From a virus, in IMG/VR virus record IMGVR_UViG_3300042988_001087, positions 1 to 25,493 of that record: a stretch of 25,493 nucleotides of DNA. One strand, given 5' to 3'. Below the pieces are notes generated by a model. The model saw only the letters and a list, made by a program, of their open reading frames with translations. It ran no database searches and had not been told where the DNA came from. A program made the translations under genes and the position numbers. How positions within the stretch are numbered: position 1 is the stretch's first letter; each line of letters begins with the position of its first letter. Positions 4,182 through 21,138 of the stretch are shown here, in pieces.

Positions 4182-5016
4182 TTATTGTGATTCAACTGGT
4201 GCTAAGAATGCATTTAAGTCTTGGGGGTTCGGTAAAACTACTTACAAAGATATTGAGATAGTTGATGATGAATCATATACACATGCAGTAATTCTTAATC
4301 ACGGCAACTTTCCTAATCTCAAAGTTCCTAAAGAGAATGTTATAGGATTTCATCAAGAGGTATATCAACTAATAGACATGAGGAAACATCTTAGTTGGAT
4401 AATGAGTAACTGTAGGAAATACTATGTTTATGATAGAAATTACATGGCATATCCATTTACTCCAGAATGGTATACTTTTTTACCAAATCTTCCACTAAAA
4501 GAAGATAAAAAATTCTATAAGTCACCTAAAAGATTCAAGATGAGTATTATTGCATCTGATAAAGGTTTCTTAGATGGACACAGAATGAGACATGAAATAA
4601 TTAGAAAAATATTGTCTACTAATCTTGATATTCATATATATGGAAGAGGCTGTCATTTATATAAAGACGATTTAGGAAGAATAAAAGGTCCAGTTGATGA
4701 TAAAAGTGTGGTTTTTTCTCCATATGAGTTCACAATCGTTATTGAAAATATGAAACAAAGATATTGGATAACCGAAAAATTTGTAGATCCTATTTTATGT
4801 GGTTGTGTTCCTATCTATTGGGGAGCAACACAAATTTCTGATATTTTTGGTGGTGATACTCATATTACAGCACCCTATGATGTTGATAACTTTTTTAAGT
4901 TAATAGTTGATGTTTATAATAATTCAGAAAATTACAAGATAAACACAGATACCGCAATAGATCGTTTACATACAAATGTAAATTTCGCGGAGTTTATCTG
5001 GAAGGAATTTAATTAA
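4156..5016 (+). CDS. GT10 family (alpha-1,3-fucosyltransferase-like) glycosyltransferase
   Basis: A 286-aa protein recognised by the GT10 donor-binding signature: FTIVIENMKQRYWITEKFVD (192-211) followed by PILCGCVPIYWGA (212-224). The FxxxxEN...YxTEK...GxVPxYWG pattern is the family hallmark, and Glu207-Lys208 of TEK contact the GDP-sugar in known members. KMSIIASDK (128-136), with HRMRHEII and DIHIYGRG after it, matches the preceding nucleotide-binding region. The start is set at the internal ATG at 4156 because GGAG lies 5 bases before it; the longer frame begins at 4135. It overlaps the previous gene by 26 bases. GT10 enzymes use GDP-L-fucose; with ColD encoded nearby, GDP-L-colitose (3-deoxyfucose) is a plausible alternative donor. 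Confidence 0.8.
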   Translation: MKKVRIFSDYCDSTGAKNAFKSWGFGKTTYKDIEIVDDESYTHAVILNHGNFPNLKVPKENVIGFHQEVYQLIDMRKHLSWIMSNCRKYYVYDRNYMAYPFTPEWYTFLPNLPLKEDKKFYKSPKRFKMSIIASDKGFLDGHRMRHEIIRKILSTNLDIHIYGRGCHLYKDDLGRIKGPVDDKSVVFSPYEFTIVIENMKQRYWITEKFVDPILCGCVPIYWGATQISDIFGGDTHITAPYDVDNFFKLIVDVYNNSENYKINTDTAIDRLHTNVNFAEFIWKEFN

Positions 5017-5602
5017 TTTCCCAATTTTCCCATATGAAATCAAAGTCATATGTAATATGGTGAGTCTTTGATAAACTCTCTCTGATTTTTTGTCTTCTAT
5101 CAATTGGTTCTTTGATAAAATCAAATTTATGAAATTGAATTTGAAGATTCTTAAATTTGTTTAAGGCATTATTTTCTATAAGTGCCTCTAAAAGTTCGTA
5201 TTCCGCACCTTCGATGTTTATTTTTATTAAATCAACATCACCCCAAAGTTTCATTTCATCAATAATATTTAGTACTTCAATTTCATCTGTGCCATTATTT
5301 GTTAATATGGAACTGGCATTTCCGTTGTTTGATATTTTAATCTTTTTATATTCGTTAAAAAGACCACAATTCTTGATTGTTATTTTTTCGGACTGAAGAT
5401 ATTTAATTGATTCAAATCCATCTGTTGTGGGTTCATATGCAAATATTTTGCAAGAATATAAGTTACTTATTGATTTAAGCCAATCCCCTTTGAAACATCC
5501 AACATCAACAACAACACTGTTTGGATTTAACTTATATTGCAACCTTAATGTTGAATCGCCCTTTGCTTCATTCCAATCGTGAATGGTTTTACCAAATCTC
5601 AT
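5009..5602 (-). CDS. FkbM family SAM-dependent methyltransferase
   Basis: A 197-aa protein with the two marks of FkbM enzymes. VVVDVGCFKGDW (30-41) is SAM-binding motif I. DLIKINIEGAEYELLEAL (124-141) is the DxxKxDxEGaE-like signature of this family. Members usually O-methylate sugars or natural products, so the likely role is methylation of the glycan made by this island. The start overlaps the ColD stop as ATGA, and AGGAG lies within the ColD end. The 3' end overlaps the convergent GT10 gene by 8 bases, with both stop codons in one palindrome (TTAATTAA). Confidence 0.8.
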   Translation of the reverse strand: MRFGKTIHDWNEAKGDSTLRLQYKLNPNSVVVDVGCFKGDWLKSISNLYSCKIFAYEPTTDGFESIKYLQSEKITIKNCGLFNEYKKIKISNNGNASSILTNNGTDEIEVLNIIDEMKLWGDVDLIKINIEGAEYELLEALIENNALNKFKNLQIQFHKFDFIKEPIDRRQKIRESLSKTHHITYDFDFIWENWEIN

Positions 5603-11404: not shown

Positions 11405-11806
11405 TTACTGTCTGTTGTGTCTGAATTTATGAACAATTTTAAAATCAGACTTTTCACAATGCTTAATAACATCAACTTTCTTTTTAGTAATATTGGCAAT
11501 GTCTTCAGGATTGACTGCTTTTAAAAGCTTCCACTTTTGAAGACAATAGACAATAGTATTCCTTCTAATAGCATCAAGTTTATTGAAGGTACTTGGTTTT
11601 CCTTGGAGTAAGAAAAGTTCCTTGAAATGAGCAATAACATACTCATCAGAACCATCTTCTGCTTTTTGCTTTCTTAAGTAGCAACTAGGGTAAATTACTT
11701 TTTCTTTTTTATTTACAATACCAATTCTTTCAAGATTCTCGTGTATCATGGGTTCATCAACTAATAACTCAACCTTGATACCAATTGGTAAATATTCCTC
11801 ACTCAT
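11405..11806 (-). CDS. regA: RegA translational repressor
   Basis: A 133-aa protein with the RegA pattern. ERIGIVNKKEKVIYPSCYL corresponds to T4's ERMGIANNKDKVLYQSCHI-like region, then VIAHFKELFLLQGK matches T4 IVHFKEMLRMDG, and DAIRRNTIVYCLQKW matches EVRRDSIAWLLEDW. T4 RegA (122 aa) binds mRNA at initiation sites of genes such as 44, 45 and regA itself and represses their translation. Its place after gene 62 is the same as in T4. GAGGAGG lies 4 bases before the ATG, an unusually strong ribosome site. A TATAAATA late promoter and a small hairpin lie in the leader, and upstream CCTCC could pair with the ribosome site. Confidence 0.93.
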   Translation of the reverse strand: MSEEYLPIGIKVELLVDEPMIHENLERIGIVNKKEKVIYPSCYLRKQKAEDGSDEYVIAHFKELFLLQGKPSTFNKLDAIRRNTIVYCLQKWKLLKAVNPEDIANITKKKVDVIKHCEKSDFKIVHKFRHNRQ

Positions 11807-11851
11807 AAAACCTCCTCACGAAATTAGGCAAGTGGAGGACCACTGTAGAGA

Positions 11852-11859
11852 TATTTATA
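11852..11859 (-). promoter_or_regulatory. T4-type late promoter candidate before regA
   Basis: The minus strand reads TATAAATA 45 bases before the regA ATG, overlapping the last codons and stop region of gene 62. The exact consensus supports late transcription of regA and perhaps of primase and the sugar genes. The overlap with coding sequence lowers confidence. Confidence 0.5.
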
Positions 11860-12277
11860 GTTTACCACCAAACTGTTTAACTATATCTTTTGCCCAATCT
11901 TCTCCTTTTATTTTAACATATTCTTCTGCTTCTTTGGGGGAGCATTGATAGTATTCACAAATAAAAGGAATATACTCAGACTCTTTCTTCTTTGTTGAAA
12001 CATAACGAATGAATGTTTTCTTAGGAGGAATTACATCCACGAGTATTTCATACATTTGCTTCTTATCCATGACACCTTGATATTGATTAAGCATATTAAC
12101 TATATCAATATTATCTCTATCCATAGAAAGGAACCTTAATGCCATATAATTATTAAATGCCTTAAGGTTCTCATCCTCATCAAGAAGATTTCCTTCTTTT
12201 TTGAATCTGATATCCTCTATAACCACATAAAAGGGGCTAGAGTCTTTCTTCTGCTTTTGAAGTCCCTTACTCTTCAT
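11855..12277 (-). CDS. 62: Clamp loader small subunit gp62
   Basis: A 140-aa protein, shorter than T4 gp62 (187 aa) and nearer the size of marine T4-like versions. It is assigned from position directly before regA plus a matching C-terminal pattern: ALRFLSMDRDN, then KKQMYEILVDVIPPKKTFIRY corresponding to T4's HFNYLMAAVPRGKRYGKW-like segment, then a helix ending in KIKGEDW. gp62 forms a 4:1 complex with gp44 that loads the gp45 clamp. The start overlaps the end of the upstream 380-aa gene by 11 bases. It is separated from gene 44 by two unknown genes, which is not the T4 order. Confidence 0.75.
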   Translation of the reverse strand: MKSKGLQKQKKDSSPFYVVIEDIRFKKEGNLLDEDENLKAFNNYMALRFLSMDRDNIDIVNMLNQYQGVMDKKQMYEILVDVIPPKKTFIRYVSTKKKESEYIPFICEYYQCSPKEAEEYVKIKGEDWAKDIVKQFGGKL

Positions 12278-14861: not shown

Positions 14862-15611
14862 TTATACCACCGTCTTTAAGAAGAAGGAAGTTTTATAAAC
14901 AGCATTAGAACCTTCAATATGAATAATATCCTTACAGATACCAAGATTCATTGAGGCGAAACTATTAGAAGCAAAGATAGTCATTAGGAGTTGTTTATCA
15001 ACTACAACCTTGAAAGTGTCTTTAAGAGTATCACATTTAACCTTTTGAGTAAATGAACTGGACTTAATATCTTTATCGGTAATACTTATATTCAACTCGT
15101 TCTGACCAGAGGAACCTTTAAAAATAGCATATCCATGTTCTAAAACAGGAAGTGCTTTAATAAACGACTTATATTTTTCTGGACTAAACTCTATTTTTTG
15201 AAGATATGGTAATTGAGCATCTAGTCCTTTGGGACCATTTCTTACAATTTTAAGATTGCCACCATAAAATAGTAACTCGGTTTCTTCGGTCTTAAGTTCC
15301 ATTTTCTCTGAGTCAACTAACCAAGTAAATCCACTTGAGAAGATATTAAGAATAGAAACTAACTCATTAACATTGATAATACCAAACTTAAAATCTGCCT
15401 TTAAATCAGCATCTTTAAGAAACTCAGGAACAAAGTCAACCATCACTGTGACTGTCTTTGCTTCGCTTTGAGTACTAATTTTTATTCTTTTATCTGCTTG
15501 AAAATCAATGGCAAACCTATCACAATGAACTCGTTGAAGATCCTTAAATGCGGAGAATAATGCTCCAGCTTTATCTTCATCAAAAACCGCTTTTAAAATA
15601 TAAGAATCCAT
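14862..15611 (-). CDS. 45: Sliding clamp gp45
   Basis: A 249-aa protein assigned from fold-like sequence pattern and position before gene 44, as in T4 (228 aa). The alternation of beta strands, the LKDADLKADFKFGIINVNEL segment in the first half and the FKVVVDKQLLMTIFAS-like stretch in the second half fit a two-domain clamp. The protein encircles DNA, ties polymerase gp43 to the template and, in T4, also activates late transcription with gp33 and gp55, which fits the TATAAATA promoters seen here. AAAGGA lies 7 bases before the ATG. A promoter with a perfect TATAAT lies just upstream. Confidence 0.85.
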   Translation of the reverse strand: MDSYILKAVFDEDKAGALFSAFKDLQRVHCDRFAIDFQADKRIKISTQSEAKTVTVMVDFVPEFLKDADLKADFKFGIINVNELVSILNIFSSGFTWLVDSEKMELKTEETELLFYGGNLKIVRNGPKGLDAQLPYLQKIEFSPEKYKSFIKALPVLEHGYAIFKGSSGQNELNISITDKDIKSSSFTQKVKCDTLKDTFKVVVDKQLLMTIFASNSFASMNLGICKDIIHIEGSNAVYKTSFFLKTVV

Positions 15612-15631
15612 AATATATCCTTTGTAGATAT

Positions 15632-15659
15632 ATTATAAACTAGATTATAGATAAAACAA
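15632..15659 (-). promoter_or_regulatory. Sigma70-like promoter before gene 45
   Basis: On the minus strand, TTGTTT (15659-15654) and TATAAT (15637-15632) are 16 bases apart, 21 bases before the gene 45 ATG. A second TATAAT (15649-15644) overlaps the spacer. The 16-base spacing is shared with candidate promoters of 32, 41, uvsX and rmlB. No convincing MotA box is seen. Confidence 0.5.
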
Positions 15660-15667
15660 TACCCCTT

Positions 15668-15979
15668 TTAAGAAACTTTTTCTACAACTTCAGCTTCTTC
15701 TTTGGTTAATCCGTCTTTAGCCAATTCCCTTATTAAATCGCTTTTCATTTTATAGTTGTAATGCTTGTCGGCTAAATCAGTTAAGGTTGTGCAAAGTAAC
15801 CACAATCCAGCCAAGGCGGTAACTTGCCAAAGGATAGTTGCAAGGGAACCTTTAAATAACCAAACCATAGCACCAATAAGTGCTAAGGTTACAAGCATCT
15901 TTCTTGAAGTCCATCTTGGTGTCTTCATTTCTTTTACATTCTTTATAAAAGAATCCATTTTATTAATATCAATACTCAT
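15668..15979 (-). CDS. Small two-helix membrane protein (holin-like topology)
   Basis: A 103-aa protein that is hidden inside a longer open frame. The start is set at the ATG at 15979 because AAAGGAG lies 5 bases before it. After a charged N-terminus there are two hydrophobic segments (about 28-42, MLVTLALIGAMVWLF, and 44-66, GSLATILWQVTALAGLWLLC), then a charged C-terminal helix (about 72-103). Two helices with charged ends is a topology shared by class II holins, but many small phage membrane proteins look like this. It begins 13 bases past the stop of the exported beta-rich protein and would share its late promoter. Lysis is one possible role; no family was recognised. Confidence 0.65.
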   Translation of the reverse strand: MSIDINKMDSFIKNVKEMKTPRWTSRKMLVTLALIGAMVWLFKGSLATILWQVTALAGLWLLCTTLTDLADKHYNYKMKSDLIRELAKDGLTKEEAEVVEKVS

Positions 15980-16495
15980 TTTTTCTCCTTTTTTAGAATC
16001 TTGTTGAGAACGACGCATAGAATAAATTTCTTTGCTCGTCATCATCATAAGTAATAACACGCCCAACCCCAACACCCAAGTTACTCCAGACTTCTCCGAA
16101 TCTTTCTGGTGCTGGATAGAAACTGACTCCAACTCCTGCTGATTGACTTGAGATGAGTCCATCGAGTGCGAAGGTGTTCCAGATTCGGAGTGGGCTGAAT
16201 CTGAGTCCAACGTCGATGTCTTTGATGTCGGTTCCGTCTTTGTTTCCCCCAAGGTATCCACCGTATGCTCCGAAGTCCCATCCTGGGTCAAAGATGAATT
16301 CTTTCCTCGTGACTTTAATTTCCCAGATTGGTGTTTCTGTTCCGTCTGGGTTTTTTCTGGTGGGGACGATTGGTTCTCCGTCCTCCCCCCTAGGGAACAC
16401 GACGTAATTATGCCAAAGACGAAAATCAAGCTTATCATCTGGGCGATCAATATGGGAGATCGTAACTTTGTTATCTTCTTCTTTAACATCATCAA
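15668..16495 (-). other. Candidate embedded lipoprotein ORF (u-spanin-like layout)
   Basis: An open frame of up to 275 codons, shifted against the 216-aa gene, runs through most of it and on in frame into the 103-aa membrane protein. Its start has AGAGGAG 6 bases before the second of two adjacent ATGs. The N-terminus has a K-rich start (LKKKITKLR), a hydrophobic core (ILIAQMISLIFVFG) and the lipobox I-T-S-Cys33, followed by Ser. A Ser/Thr/Gln/Glu linker of about 100 residues leads to a hydrophobic segment (VTWVLGLGVLLLMMM, 138-152) with arginines after it. A lipobox followed by a linker and a membrane segment is the layout of unimolecular spanins. The reading could be an accident of a GC-rich segment, which is also open in other frames. 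Confidence 0.3.
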
Positions 16496-16643
16496 CTCCT
16501 CTAATAAGTTCTATATCTGGTTTTGGTTTTACAACCGAATAACCATTTGGAGTCACAGAGGGAGCAGAGTTATTAAAATATAAAGTAGCCGCCAATAGTC
16601 CTATAAGAAATATTGGCGCTAAACTTTCTAACTCTAATTTCAT
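15993..16643 (-). CDS. Exported beta-rich protein, possible outer-membrane barrel
   Basis: A 216-aa protein, not recognised as a named family. A single hydrophobic segment (9-24, APIFLIGLLAATLYFN) anchors or exports it. Residues 30-110 are polar. Residues 118-216 alternate in the manner of outer-membrane strands (FDPGWDFGAYGGYLGG, later SAGVGVSFYPAP and NLGVGVGRVITYD) and the chain ends in Phe, the usual terminal residue of barrel proteins. AGGA lies 6 bases before the ATG, with a late promoter overlapping a hairpin immediately upstream. Codons end in C far more often than in neighbouring genes (ATC, GAC, TTC, CTC, GTC), pointing to recent transfer, expression tuning, or a second coding frame. 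Confidence 0.75.
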   Translation of the reverse strand: MKLELESLAPIFLIGLLAATLYFNNSAPSVTPNGYSVVKPKPDIELIRGVDDVKEEDNKVTISHIDRPDDKLDFRLWHNYVVFPRGEDGEPIVPTRKNPDGTETPIWEIKVTRKEFIFDPGWDFGAYGGYLGGNKDGTDIKDIDVGLRFSPLRIWNTFALDGLISSQSAGVGVSFYPAPERFGEVWSNLGVGVGRVITYDDDEQRNLFYASFSTRF

Positions 16644-16666
16644 ATGGCTTCCTAGCCATATTTATA
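16642..16666 (-). promoter_or_regulatory. Late promoter overlapping a start-site hairpin
   Basis: The minus strand reads TATAAATA (16666-16659). ATATGGCT (16661-16654) and AGCCATAT (16649-16642) form an 8-bp stem whose 4-nt loop is the ribosome site AGGA, and the start codon lies in the right arm. A late transcript would begin near 16653, inside the loop, and so lack the left arm. A read-through transcript from the rml genes would carry the full hairpin and hide the start. T4 e, soc and 49 use this arrangement to block early translation. Confidence 0.65.
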
Positions 16667-16670
16667 AAAA

Positions 16671-17930
16671 TTAAATTTTTATAATTTTAGCGGTAGGATC
16701 TGAAATAAATTCTTTATAACCTCCATCAATCTTACTAACTGTCAACTCAGGAGTTATGTTATAAAACTTAGTAACAAAGTCATCAAGTTTGAACCCCTCG
16801 GATACTATGTTTATTTTTTGTATTGAATCAGTTTTAAACTCATTATTTTTAAACATATTAATAATTTGAAGAGACAATTCTGAGACTTCTGTTGGAGACA
16901 CGTATTCATTAGGATCTACTGCAATTTTACCAGTTTCTTTAATAATCTGAGAGAATCTTTTAAATATATCTGGATTGTTATCATTAGCACCATAAAGATT
17001 TGCGACTCTTAGAAGGGTTGTTGTTCTTGTTGTTTGAATATTTGAAGAGAGAGTTAATACAAATTCCATGTCTTGCTTGGATCTTGTATATGTGCTTGTA
17101 TGATAATTAATGATATTTGGTTTAACTTTATGATATACATAATTTGTTGATATTTGTATGAAATTCCAATTTCTTTCGGAGCAAAGACCAGCAAAAAGTA
17201 ATGGTAATCTAATGTTTGTCCATCTCCACTTATCGTTTAATTCTGAAGATTCTTGTGTGTTGGTTAAAGCTGCACAATTTATAAAAGTTACATCTCTATC
17301 TTTAAAATTTAAATCCATAAGTTTTGTAAAGTTTCTGAATTCATCTTCATTAAGAATCTTATCAAAACAAGGAATTACTTCATAGGTATGCATACCTACT
17401 TCTTTGTAAGCAACTTCAGTTAGTGCCTTACCAAGTTTTCCACCAGCACCAAAAATAAATAAAATTTTATTATTAGTAGTATTTTTTTCATGTCTTATTT
17501 CGTCTGCTGGGTCGTTTCTCCCGAATCCCTTATAAAGCTTATTAAGACCATTAAAGGTATAGGATATTTTATTTAATTCAAGGTTTCTGTAACCATGATG
17601 TATACCATGCTCTACATATAAACTATAAATTCCCCTTGGTTCTGTAACAAAGAATTTGGTTTCTTTGGTTTCTGGATTATAGAACTCATAAACCATCCTT
17701 GAGTTCCAAGTTATGAATTCATCGTCTTGAAAGTTGTGTTCATGTGGTCCTCTTTTAACGAGAGGATTTGTCTCGCTAATATACATATTAATAACAGACT
17801 TAAAAGTATCCGAATCTGATCTTAAAATCTCCATAAGAAGACCACGACTATCTTCAAATGGTTTAAGTTTTCTTACTTTAACTTTTCCACCCCACCAAGA
17901 ATGAATAATATCAAAAGGTATAGTTTCCAT
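16671..17930 (-). CDS. RmlC-RmlD fusion: dTDP-4-keto-6-deoxysugar epimerase-reductase
   Basis: A 419-aa two-domain protein. Residues 15-150 are RmlC-like: FEDSRGLLMEI (25-35) matches FxDxRGxxxE, RGPHEH (60-65) holds the catalytic His, and VEHGIHHGY (106-114) matches the conserved GxxHGF. Residues 155-419 are RmlD-like: FGAGGKLGKAL (160-170) binds NAD(P)H, FINCAALTNT is the usual NCAAyT block, ISTNYVY (260-266) stands for STDYVF, and YTRSK (281-285) is YxxxK. RmlC and RmlD together turn the RmlB product into dTDP-L-rhamnose; the fusion would do both steps. The two are usually separate proteins. The start overlaps the rmlB stop as TAATG. The exact sugar made is not certain, and no RmlA is present in the window. 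Confidence 0.8.
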   Translation of the reverse strand: METIPFDIIHSWWGGKVKVRKLKPFEDSRGLLMEILRSDSDTFKSVINMYISETNPLVKRGPHEHNFQDDEFITWNSRMVYEFYNPETKETKFFVTEPRGIYSLYVEHGIHHGYRNLELNKISYTFNGLNKLYKGFGRNDPADEIRHEKNTTNNKILFIFGAGGKLGKALTEVAYKEVGMHTYEVIPCFDKILNEDEFRNFTKLMDLNFKDRDVTFINCAALTNTQESSELNDKWRWTNIRLPLLFAGLCSERNWNFIQISTNYVYHKVKPNIINYHTSTYTRSKQDMEFVLTLSSNIQTTRTTTLLRVANLYGANDNNPDIFKRFSQIIKETGKIAVDPNEYVSPTEVSELSLQIINMFKNNEFKTDSIQKINIVSEGFKLDDFVTKFYNITPELTVSKIDGGYKEFISDPTAKIIKI

Positions 17931-18950
17931 TATATTGCTCCCAATTCTAAATGTTTGCTTTCTGGTCTGTTATAAAGTTTTACATTATTTTTATAAAATT
18001 CCATAACCATCTTAAATTGCCTGTGAAGAACATGATCAATAAAATACTCATCAATGTCTCTGTCTGTATTAAGTGCATACATAAGATCATTTCCGTTTCT
18101 ATCAGAAACATGTTCATATGTTGCTTTAATATCAAAGTCTGACTCTAGTATGTTACACCATAATTTAACAATTTCAAGATTACTTTGTAATTCTTGTCTT
18201 TGGGCAATATGGAGAACATCTCTATGAGGTAACTTACCAGAAATATAATCCGCAATTACCTTAACACTTATTGAAACAGGAGTCCATTGTCTTATATGCC
18301 TTCCATCACCGTGAATTAATATAGGTTGACCATTAAATGCTCTCAAAATAGACTTAGGAAACATTTTTTCTGGATGCTGGTGTTCACCAAATTGATTTGC
18401 CAATCTAATATACTTAACATCTACTCCAAAAGTATGCTTCAACGCACCCAAGTATAAATCTTGTGCTGCTTTAGAGGCAGAATATGGATTATTAGGAGCA
18501 AATGGAGTCTTGGGTGTAAACCAGAATTTTTCGTCTGTTTGATCTAAAGGTATCTCACCATATACTTCGTCCGTCGAAATATGATAAAAAGTGTTTATGT
18601 TCTTTAACCCTATTCTATCAATTAGGTTTGGTATTAAAAGCACATTTTCTTTATAAACTTCTGAAGTATATAAACTCTTAGTAACATGACTTCCAGAAGC
18701 AAAATTTAAAATATCAAATGATAGTAAACTCATAATATCGCTATGGAAACTATTAATATCACAATCAATTCTTATAATGTTTAATTCTGAGCAAAGTTTC
18801 CTATAAGTTTCAATATTATAATCAGTGGAATAATCAAGTCTATCTATAGAAATAATTTCTTTATAGTTATTTCTGATAGATTTAAGTTCCTTAAGGAAAT
18901 TTATGCCTATAAAACCTCAGACCACCAGTTACAATAAGATTTTTTTTCAT
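17930..18950 (-). CDS. dTDP-glucose 4,6-dehydratase (RmlB-like), frameshifted near its N-terminus
   Basis: The main open frame (267 codons from 18733) lacks the cofactor loop. Reading upstream in the same frame continues without a stop to codon 11, where a single extra base (the A opposite T at 18917, in CTGAGG) breaks the frame. Removing it restores MKKNLIVTGGLGFIGINFLK, a standard NAD-binding start, and a 339-aa protein. The ATG at 18950 has GGAG 6 bases upstream. Further marks are STDEVYGE (125-132, catalytic Thr-Asp-Glu), YSASK (156-160), NQFGEHQHPEKMFP and RHIRQWTPV. As written, translation from 18950 stops after 19 codons. This is either a sequencing error or an inactivating mutation; a shortened protein from 18733 would lack the dinucleotide loop. 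Confidence 0.8.
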
Positions 18951-18970: not shown

Positions 18971-18998
18971 ATTATAACACAAATTTAATATCTTTAAA
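18971..18998 (-). promoter_or_regulatory. Sigma70-like promoter before the rml genes
   Basis: On the minus strand, TTTAAA (18998-18993) and TATAAT (18976-18971) are 16 bases apart, and TGT just before the -10 box makes it an extended -10. It ends 20 bases before the ATG at 18950. It would start the rmlB-rmlCD transcript that reads toward the late cassette hairpin. Confidence 0.5.
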
Positions 18999-19003
18999 TT
19001 AAT

Positions 19004-19011
19004 TATAAATA
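19004..19011 (+). promoter_or_regulatory. T4-type late promoter for the homing endonuclease
   Basis: TATAAATA lies 23 bases before the ATG of the GIY-YIG gene, on the plus strand. AAAGGA lies between, 11 bases from the ATG, which is a long spacing. Confidence 0.65.
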
Positions 19012-19034
19012 AACATTAAAGGATTAAATTTTCT

Positions 19035-19790
19035 ATGAGTAAAAAAAATTGTTATTATGTGTATTTTCTTCTAGATACTAGAAGAAAACAAAAATTTATT
19101 TTTAGGAATTTTGAGTTTGATTATGTTCCATTTTATGTAGGGAAGGGAAAAAATTATAGATATGCTGATCATTTTCAATATTCAACTCTTTCAAAGGAAA
19201 ATAATAGAAAAGCAACAAAAATTAAAAGCATAATAAATGAAACAAATAAAAATCCAGAAGTTGTTATTGTTTACAAAAATTTATCTAATGAAGATGCTTT
19301 AAAAATTGAAAGTGATTTAATTTCCGAACTAAAAAGAATAGAAGATGGTGGGATACTAACAAATACAACATTAGGTGGAGAAAATCCACCCGCTCTCTTT
19401 GGTGAAAATAACGGTTTCTTTAAAAGACACCATACAGAAGAATCTAAAAAAATAATGAGTTTAAAGAAATTAGGTAAGAAATTAAATAAAAATCATATTG
19501 AAAAACTTAAGCAATCACATATGGGTGCAAAGAATGGTTTTTTTGGAAAAAAACATTCAAAAGAAACTAAACTATTAATGAGTAAAATAAAAAAAGAAAA
19601 GAAAAAGAAACAATATATACTTTCATTAACTGATGGTAAAGAATTAATCGTTGAAAACTTAAAGCAATTTTGTATTGACAATGGTTATACCTATAGTTGT
19701 ATATGTAATCTAGTAGCTAAAAGAATAAAAAAATGTTATGGGTTTATATCGGCAAAAATAAAACCCCCTGAGAATTCTCAAGGGGTTTGA
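19035..19790 (+). CDS. GIY-YIG homing endonuclease with NUMOD3 repeats
   Basis: A 251-aa free-standing homing endonuclease. YYVYFLL (7-13) and FYVGKG (33-38) are the GIY and YIG strands, R42 and H46 follow in the usual helix, and ALKIESDLI (88-96) contains the metal-binding Glu92. Two NUMOD3 DNA-binding repeats follow (about 123-142 and 164-183, both GxNNGFF/GAKNGFF-like with S...MS), then a Lys-rich helix and a C-terminal segment like a small helix-turn-helix (205-240). It lies antisense just after gene 32. T4 carries SegG, also GIY-YIG, beside its gene 32, where it drives exclusion of markers from competing phages. The last codons of this gene form the gene 32 terminator. Confidence 0.9.
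   Translation: MSKKNCYYVYFLLDTRRKQKFIFRNFEFDYVPFYVGKGKNYRYADHFQYSTLSKENNRKATKIKSIINETNKNPEVVIVYKNLSNEDALKIESDLISELKRIEDGGILTNTTLGGENPPALFGENNGFFKRHHTEESKKIMSLKKLGKKLNKNHIEKLKQSHMGAKNGFFGKKHSKETKLLMSKIKKEKKKKQYILSLTDGKELIVENLKQFCIDNGYTYSCICNLVAKRIKKCYGFISAKIKPPENSQGV
19761..19788 (-). terminator. Terminator of gene 32, inside the 3' end of the homing endonuclease gene
   Basis: AAACCCC (19761-19767) pairs with GGGGTTT (19782-19788). The inner TGAG/CTCA pairs around AATT, and one C-A mismatch separates the two stems. In minus-strand sense a TTTTATTTTT tract follows, and gene 32 ends 20 bases before it. In plus-strand sense the tail is ATTTGTTT, so weak bidirectional use is possible. The same bases encode the last ten residues of the endonuclease. 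Confidence 0.85.
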
Positions 19791-20859: not shown

Positions 20860-21138
20860 TTAGAATTTGCATTTTCCGTATCGTTGAATTGCGTCTTTTT
20901 TTAATAGGTCTTTAAACTCTTTATTAAGTTTATCTACTGCCTCCCTTTCCGACATACCAAAGAAATCTTTTAAACCAACAACACAGTCCCAAATATTTAT
21001 ATTCTGTTCGTATACCATTTTTTTAACTATTTTATTGTATATCTTTTTTACTTCAAGATGTGCCTTATTCGGAGTCATACCGCATTTTTTACCTAACTCG
21101 TCATATGTCAAAGGTTTAGAAACTGATTTATAATTCAT
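20860..21138 (-). CDS. Small helix-turn-helix protein, sigma region 4-like
   Basis: A 92-aa protein. PLTYDELGKKCGMTPNKAHL (9-28) followed by EVKKIYNKIVKKM resembles the region 4 helix-turn-helix of sigma70 factors (LTLxEIGxxLGVTxxRVxxIExxAxxKLR). A second helical part (FFGMSEREAVDKLNKEF, 59-75) follows. The chain has no other sigma regions. AAGGA lies in the last codons of gene 41, and three bases separate the genes. By place (between 41 and 32) and content it may be a transcription modulator; a gp33-like or other late-transcription role is only a guess, as no gp33 similarity is visible. Confidence 0.6.
   Translation of the reverse strand: MNYKSVSKPLTYDELGKKCGMTPNKAHLEVKKIYNKIVKKMVYEQNINIWDCVVGLKDFFGMSEREAVDKLNKEFKDLLKKDAIQRYGKCKF

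Follow-up and report, generated by a model that had tools for sequence, protein, structure and literature searches.

A late promoter embedded in a start-site hairpin: a candidate early/late translational switch in an uncultured phage distantly related to T4

The DNA analysed here comprises the 25,493 nucleotides (nt) of the IMG/VR virus record IMGVR_UViG_3300042988_001087 (positions 1 to 25,493; referred to as the window) and derives from an uncultured distant relative of phage T4. The gene under study is located on the minus strand (15993-16643, -) and encodes a protein of 216 amino acids (aa), with an N-terminal membrane helix followed by a beta-rich domain of no known family. It is preceded by rml genes and followed by gp45/44, all on the same strand. 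Homologs of gp45, gp44 and regA were identified in the window by profile search or alignment, and other replication genes also appear to be present, as judged by position and appearance. The rmlC/rmlD-like gene directly upstream (16671-17930, -; Pfam RmlD_sub_bind, 2e-15) ends about 27 nt 5' of the ATG of the 216-aa gene.

The start region (minus strand, 16666-16641) reads TATAAATATGGCTAGGAAGCCATATG and contains, in this order, a late (gp55-type) promoter box, the left arm of a hairpin, an AGGA loop, the right arm and the ATG. The promoter box TATAAATA (16659-16666, -) is an exact match, and its last three bases form part of the left arm ATATGGCT (16654-16661, -), in agreement with the overlap of box and arm reported in a preliminary description of this DNA. 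The AGGA of the loop (16650-16653, -) is the Shine-Dalgarno (SD) sequence, and the right arm AGCCATAT (16642-16649, -) includes the A and U of the start codon. Eight uninterrupted pairs between ATATGGCT and AGCCATAT form a perfect stem enclosing AGGA. The stem, the loop and their coordinates are thus as first described; the start codon (16643-16641), which had been assigned to the right arm as a whole, is paired at its A and U only, with the G immediately outside the stem. The hairpin was both the minimum free energy and the centroid structure in its local context. Its energy was -12.9 kcal/mol (z -4.1) when 46 nt were folded and -14.6 kcal/mol (z -3.8) with 69 nt; none of 200 shuffled sequences was as good, and the hairpin persisted when folded with 121 nt of context.

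Exact copies of TATAAATA occur eight times in the window (4.9 expected), which is a mild excess only, since 10 of 100 shuffled sequences contain as many. However, six of the seven judgeable sites lie within 60 nt 5' of a gene start on the same strand, and the copy at 16666-16659 is therefore plausibly a real late promoter. The copy at 21001, by comparison, is probably not a promoter: it is intragenic and, together with its codons, conserved in three phages. A homolog of the late sigma factor gp55 (148 aa; phrog_234, 6e-17, as well as a direct profile match to T4 gp55) is encoded outside the window itself and is known from a contig (L009, gene at 4619-5062) that shares 7235 bp with the window at 100% identity; there, the gene adjoins a gp47-like gene and a frame resembling gp46. 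In T4, the late box precedes the start site by about one helical turn (PMC2988020), which places the predicted late transcription start (+1) at 16653 (A), the first base of the loop and about 6 nt past the box, so that the left arm, 5' of this position, would be absent from late RNA. The predicted late leader comprises 10 nt (AGGAAGCCAU). A precedent for so short a leader is provided by T4 gene e, whose leader measures about 8 nt by the same placement rule.

The accessibility of the start was expressed as an opening energy, defined as the cost of making the stretch from SD to AUG single-stranded. For the 216-aa gene, opening was calculated to require 10.5 kcal/mol in read-through RNA and 0.3 kcal/mol in late RNA starting about 6 bases past the box. 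The late value remained at 0.1-0.4 kcal/mol when the predicted +1 was placed 5 to 8 nt past the box, leaving the contrast unaffected, and the energies were similar at 15°C. The preliminary description had proposed that a late transcript would start within the loop and carry a leader of about 10 bases, and the predicted +1 and the open late RNA are in line with this proposal. In a uniform scan using a fixed 60 nt upstream of each of 31 gene starts in the window, the start of the 216-aa gene ranked first for closure (12.8 kcal/mol; median near 3). The arrangement could in principle be a chance palindrome, aided by the AT-rich promoter and the CATATG start and without any regulatory role. When TATAAATA, AGGA, ATG and the coding sequence were kept fixed and the remainder was drawn from local composition, 0.4% of 3000 randomised sequences reached the observed difference between read-through and late RNA, and there are many late promoters per genome. 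Against this stand the first rank among the window starts, a second late gene of the same phage with the same design (see below) and the conservation of the arms in a relative despite diverged flanks, and an origin by chance is considered quite unlikely.

The whole T4 genome served as a positive control. Read-through and late opening energies were 15.6/1.6 kcal/mol for e, 13.1/0.4 for I-TevII, 13.7/2.9 for I-TevI, 17.0/3.7 for 49 and 15.7/5.6 for segB, and the T4 genes 19 and 22, which have no known switch, gave 4.5/3.5 and 1.4/1.3 kcal/mol, respectively. The values of the window site (10.5/0.3) are about the level of those of T4 e, 49, I-TevI and I-TevII. When all exact late boxes with a nearby start were compared, the largest differences were obtained for T4 e, T4 I-TevII, T4 26 and 51 (which have divergent, overlapping promoters), the window site, its ortholog in the relative described next, and the endonuclease gene of that relative.

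A single relative of the window was found, via UvsX (IMGVR_UViG_3300042261_000798, hereafter L010; 72-76% nucleotide identity in matching blocks). It encodes an ortholog of the 216-aa protein (69% identical) with the same ATG, and because an in-frame stop in L010 directly precedes this ATG, the start codon is fixed. The start region of L010, TATAAATATGGCTCAGGTAGAGCCATATG, contains the same box in the orthologous place (17174) and the same eight pairs, extended by one C-G pair; the loop reads AGGTA, so that the SD remains in the loop. Opening of this start requires 12.2 kcal/mol in read-through and 1.6 kcal/mol in late RNA. The sequences 5' of the box have diverged between the window and L010 (TTTAATTTT vs TTTAAGGAG), whereas 11 spacer bases (TGGCT and AGCCAT), needed by neither the promoter nor the ribosome site, are all unchanged. 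The C and G inserted in L010 sit opposite each other. This pair also bears on the idea that the inverted repeat acts as a DNA operator over the late promoter, with an incidental RNA hairpin, for which it can be said that the repeat overlaps the promoter and that I-TevI binds its own late promoter (PMC2988022). The additional pair shifts the spacing of the arms (AGGA to C-AGGTA-G), a change to which a DNA-binding dimer should be sensitive and an RNA stem should not; moreover, both phages carry the SD in the loop, with arms that extend exactly to the start codon, rendering an operator very unlikely.

The pattern TATAAATATGG-N6-18-CCATATG was scanned against 2.9 million viral contigs. It occurred in 16 places, among which (not counting the window) only L010 has a hairpin opening a comparable gene. 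The other places lie inside genes or have no gene, except for one in contig L106, whose 907-aa frame, in our judgement, appears to begin at a methionine internal to a longer enzyme gene. The 216-aa protein searched alone against viral contigs, phage records and bacterial and archaeal genomes gave no relatives, and profile searches with gp45, a 103-aa frame of the same locus (see below) and the two-sequence alignment of the 216-aa protein returned L010 only. Among 80 distant T4-like contigs collected with a gp44 profile, there was no homolog of either overlapping protein of the locus, and the few late boxes with a start in these contigs showed no further strong switch.

RNA reading into the 216-aa gene would likely come from a sigma70-like promoter before the rml genes (TTTAAA-16-TATAAT with extended -10; 18971-18998, -), because RNA from gp32 and beyond should be terminated at a strong terminator-like hairpin (19788-19761, -; 12 pairs and a T-rich tail) located between the convergent gp32 and endonuclease genes. 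A counterpart of the promoter, also with an extended -10, is present in L010 (14836-14864); such consensus matches are weak evidence, as they only somewhat outnumber those of shuffled sequence in the window and do not outnumber them in L010. A same-strand scan between the rml promoter and the 216-aa gene detected no terminator-like site in either the window or L010. A terminator function of the AT palindrome TATAAAAATTTAATTTTTATA, located at the end of the rmlD-like gene, was also considered but rejected, as the palindrome has no G+C stem and was not called by the scan. Of the earlier proposal that transcripts read through from the rml promoter, a putative promoter and a path to the 216-aa gene free of terminator-like sites were recovered, with the read-through RNA itself predicted from these features. 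The 5' end of the rmlB-like gene (about 18910-18925, -) is out of frame relative to L010, reflecting either a sequencing error or a real lesion.

Taken together, the late box, the gp55 homolog, the closed and open energies and the conservation in L010 argue with good confidence for the type of switch suggested in the preliminary description: the 216-aa gene, a putative late gene within what appears to be an early unit, probably carries a translational switch between early and late expression, as known from T4 e, soc, 49 and I-TevI. RNA reading in from the rml genes would fold the 8-bp hairpin and hide AGGA and the start codon, so that the gene would be silent early in infection. Late transcription directed by gp55 would start at about 16653, within the loop, and yield RNA that lacks the left arm and bears AGGA at the extreme 5' end of a 10-nt leader, from which the protein would be translated. 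Such a switch would likely serve to prevent expression of an envelope-active, possibly lytic, gene cluster before the late phase, at a time when the surrounding rml and replication genes are expressed.

Several points weigh against this interpretation. The accepted case T4 soc scores only 7.6/7.2 kcal/mol, and the opening energy is thus an imperfect metric that misses some cases. The read-through value of the window site, at 10.5 kcal/mol, lies below those of the T4 cases (13-17 kcal/mol). Conservation was assessed in one relative only, and covariation consists of a single paired insertion, with the other eight pairs invariant. The read-through RNA is deduced from sequence features, and the late +1 is placed by analogy with T4. 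Finally, L010 has an extra AAGGAG just 5' of the box, and its left arm contains an AUG, a combination that could give rise to a short upstream frame, although that AUG is also in the stem. The same AAGGAG would fit a role of the hairpin in aiding initiation on read-through RNA, in which folding would move an upstream SD closer to the AUG, as in T4 genes 25 and 38 (PMC3014915). However, the window has no SD at that upstream place, and the start codon and AGGA lie inside the stem-loop, not after it, so that we regard such an aid as highly unlikely.

With the translational switch as the preferred interpretation, the locus would represent a new instance of a known device: the regulated gene is new and the switch type is already known. 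The mechanism is described in reviews that name e, soc, 49, I-TevI, I-TevII, I-TevIII, segB and mobE as cases, with a 100-fold repression of e (PMC3014915, PMC2988022). As in T4 e, late RNA would start past the blocking structure with a very short leader (10 nt, compared with about 8 nt in e), and read-through RNA is predicted to be closed and late RNA to be open; the 216-aa gene may likewise be a late gene inside an early unit. Unlike in e, the SD here is the loop itself; the gene is not homologous to e, the hairpin sequence is unrelated and the phage belongs to another lineage. T4 soc and 49 follow the same logic, with a late gene in an early region, but their late leaders are longer (about 24 nt), and the late RNA of soc is still predicted to form a shortened stem. 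The endonuclease switches of I-TevI, I-TevII, segB and Aeh1 mobE also share the logic of the 216-aa gene, which differs in not encoding an endonuclease. The classic T4 device would thereby be carried to a lineage whose clamp loader is <40% identical to that of the best-matching catalogued phages, and the switch described here has probably evolved independently, on a gene that has no relationship to those of lysozyme, soc or endonuclease VII. Comparing read-through and late opening energies at late boxes may serve as a simple sequence test for such switches in uncultured T4-like phages.

The regulated gene overlaps further open reading frames. Its own product had no PHROG, Pfam or INPHARED match; a structural model (helix 5-25 followed by beta strands) was of low confidence (mean pLDDT 51), and a fold search with this model gave no significant match. 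An out-of-frame (+1) lipoprotein frame of 274 aa (15668-16492, -; signal FGIITSC) overlaps the 216-aa gene and runs beyond it. It is 63% identical in L010. This second frame is very probably a real coding sequence, because third positions of the outer frame diverge less within the overlap (a drop from 0.49 to 0.28) and the lipoprotein frame stays open in none of 5000 synonymous recodings. The last 103 codons of the lipoprotein open reading frame, in the same frame, constitute a 103-aa frame (15668-15979, -; 68% identical in L010) that has a ribosome site of its own and encodes two hydrophobic segments; this frame is holin-like by appearance. The overlapping cluster may be a lysis cassette, which is a reasonable guess from its layout; the parallel with T4 e would then be functional as well as mechanical, and the overlapping gene pair is marked here as a new candidate of this type. 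In overlapped spanins, a lipoprotein gene lies out of frame inside a membrane-anchored gene (PMC6139136). The present locus resembles these Rz/Rz1-type systems in having, at a late promoter, an out-of-frame (+1) lipoprotein gene within a gene whose product carries a membrane helix at its N-terminus (PMC6139136), and departs from them in that the outer gene product is beta-rich in the low-confidence model rather than a coiled coil, and in that the lipoprotein frame continues into a membrane protein. The overlapping pair had no spanin match by PHROG or Pfam and no INPHARED relative. In spite of the overlapped layout, it was thus not filed as a two-component spanin, because a sequence or profile match to known spanins was lacking.

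A second switch of the same kind is predicted at the GIY-YIG endonuclease gene (19035-19790, +; Pfam GIY-YIG and NUMOD3), where a hairpin (18981-19031, +) pairs the SD AAAGGA and TATAAATA (19004-19011) lies between the arms. Read-through and late opening energies were 5.7/1.8 kcal/mol in the window and 15.7/2.6 kcal/mol in L010 (14770-14880, -). The support for this switch comes from L010, because the fold of the window sequence alone was not better than shuffled (z 0.4). The endonuclease gene thus appears to be a late gene with the same switch design, conserved and stronger in L010, and matches I-TevI, I-TevII, segB and Aeh1 mobE in both gene type and design.

Another start-site hairpin was found at gp45 (sliding clamp), the next gene after the cassette and the second most closed start of the window. 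A long AU hairpin (15605-15641, -; z -3.4) covers its start (ATG 15611-15609) and contains a sigma70-like -10 box (TATAAT) in the left arm, so that its geometry matches that of the 216-aa gene with another type of box; opening requires 12.8 kcal/mol in read-through RNA and 2.5 kcal/mol in RNA from its own TATAAT box. L010 has a good sigma70-like promoter (TTGAAA-16-TATAAT) in the same place and a weaker hairpin (8.5/3.4-5.1 kcal/mol). Conceivably, the two adjacent hairpins could form a two-way toggle, in which the start at 16643 would pass late RNA only and that of gp45 (15611) only RNA from its own early/middle promoter and not late RNA from 16653. We consider such a toggle rather doubtful, and this mirror case is the least certain of our readings; if true, promoter-in-hairpin gating would be a general device that is not tied to a single sigma factor. 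The third most closed start of the window belongs to a primase-like gene (11368, -), which carries an AGGA...UCCU hairpin over its start. The late box of regA (11859) showed the opposite sign, its late RNA being not more open. In this region (11780-11870, -), the box is located at the end of the preceding gene and is followed by CCUCC facing the regA ribosome site GAGGAGG, a leader that could lower RegA translation on late RNA.
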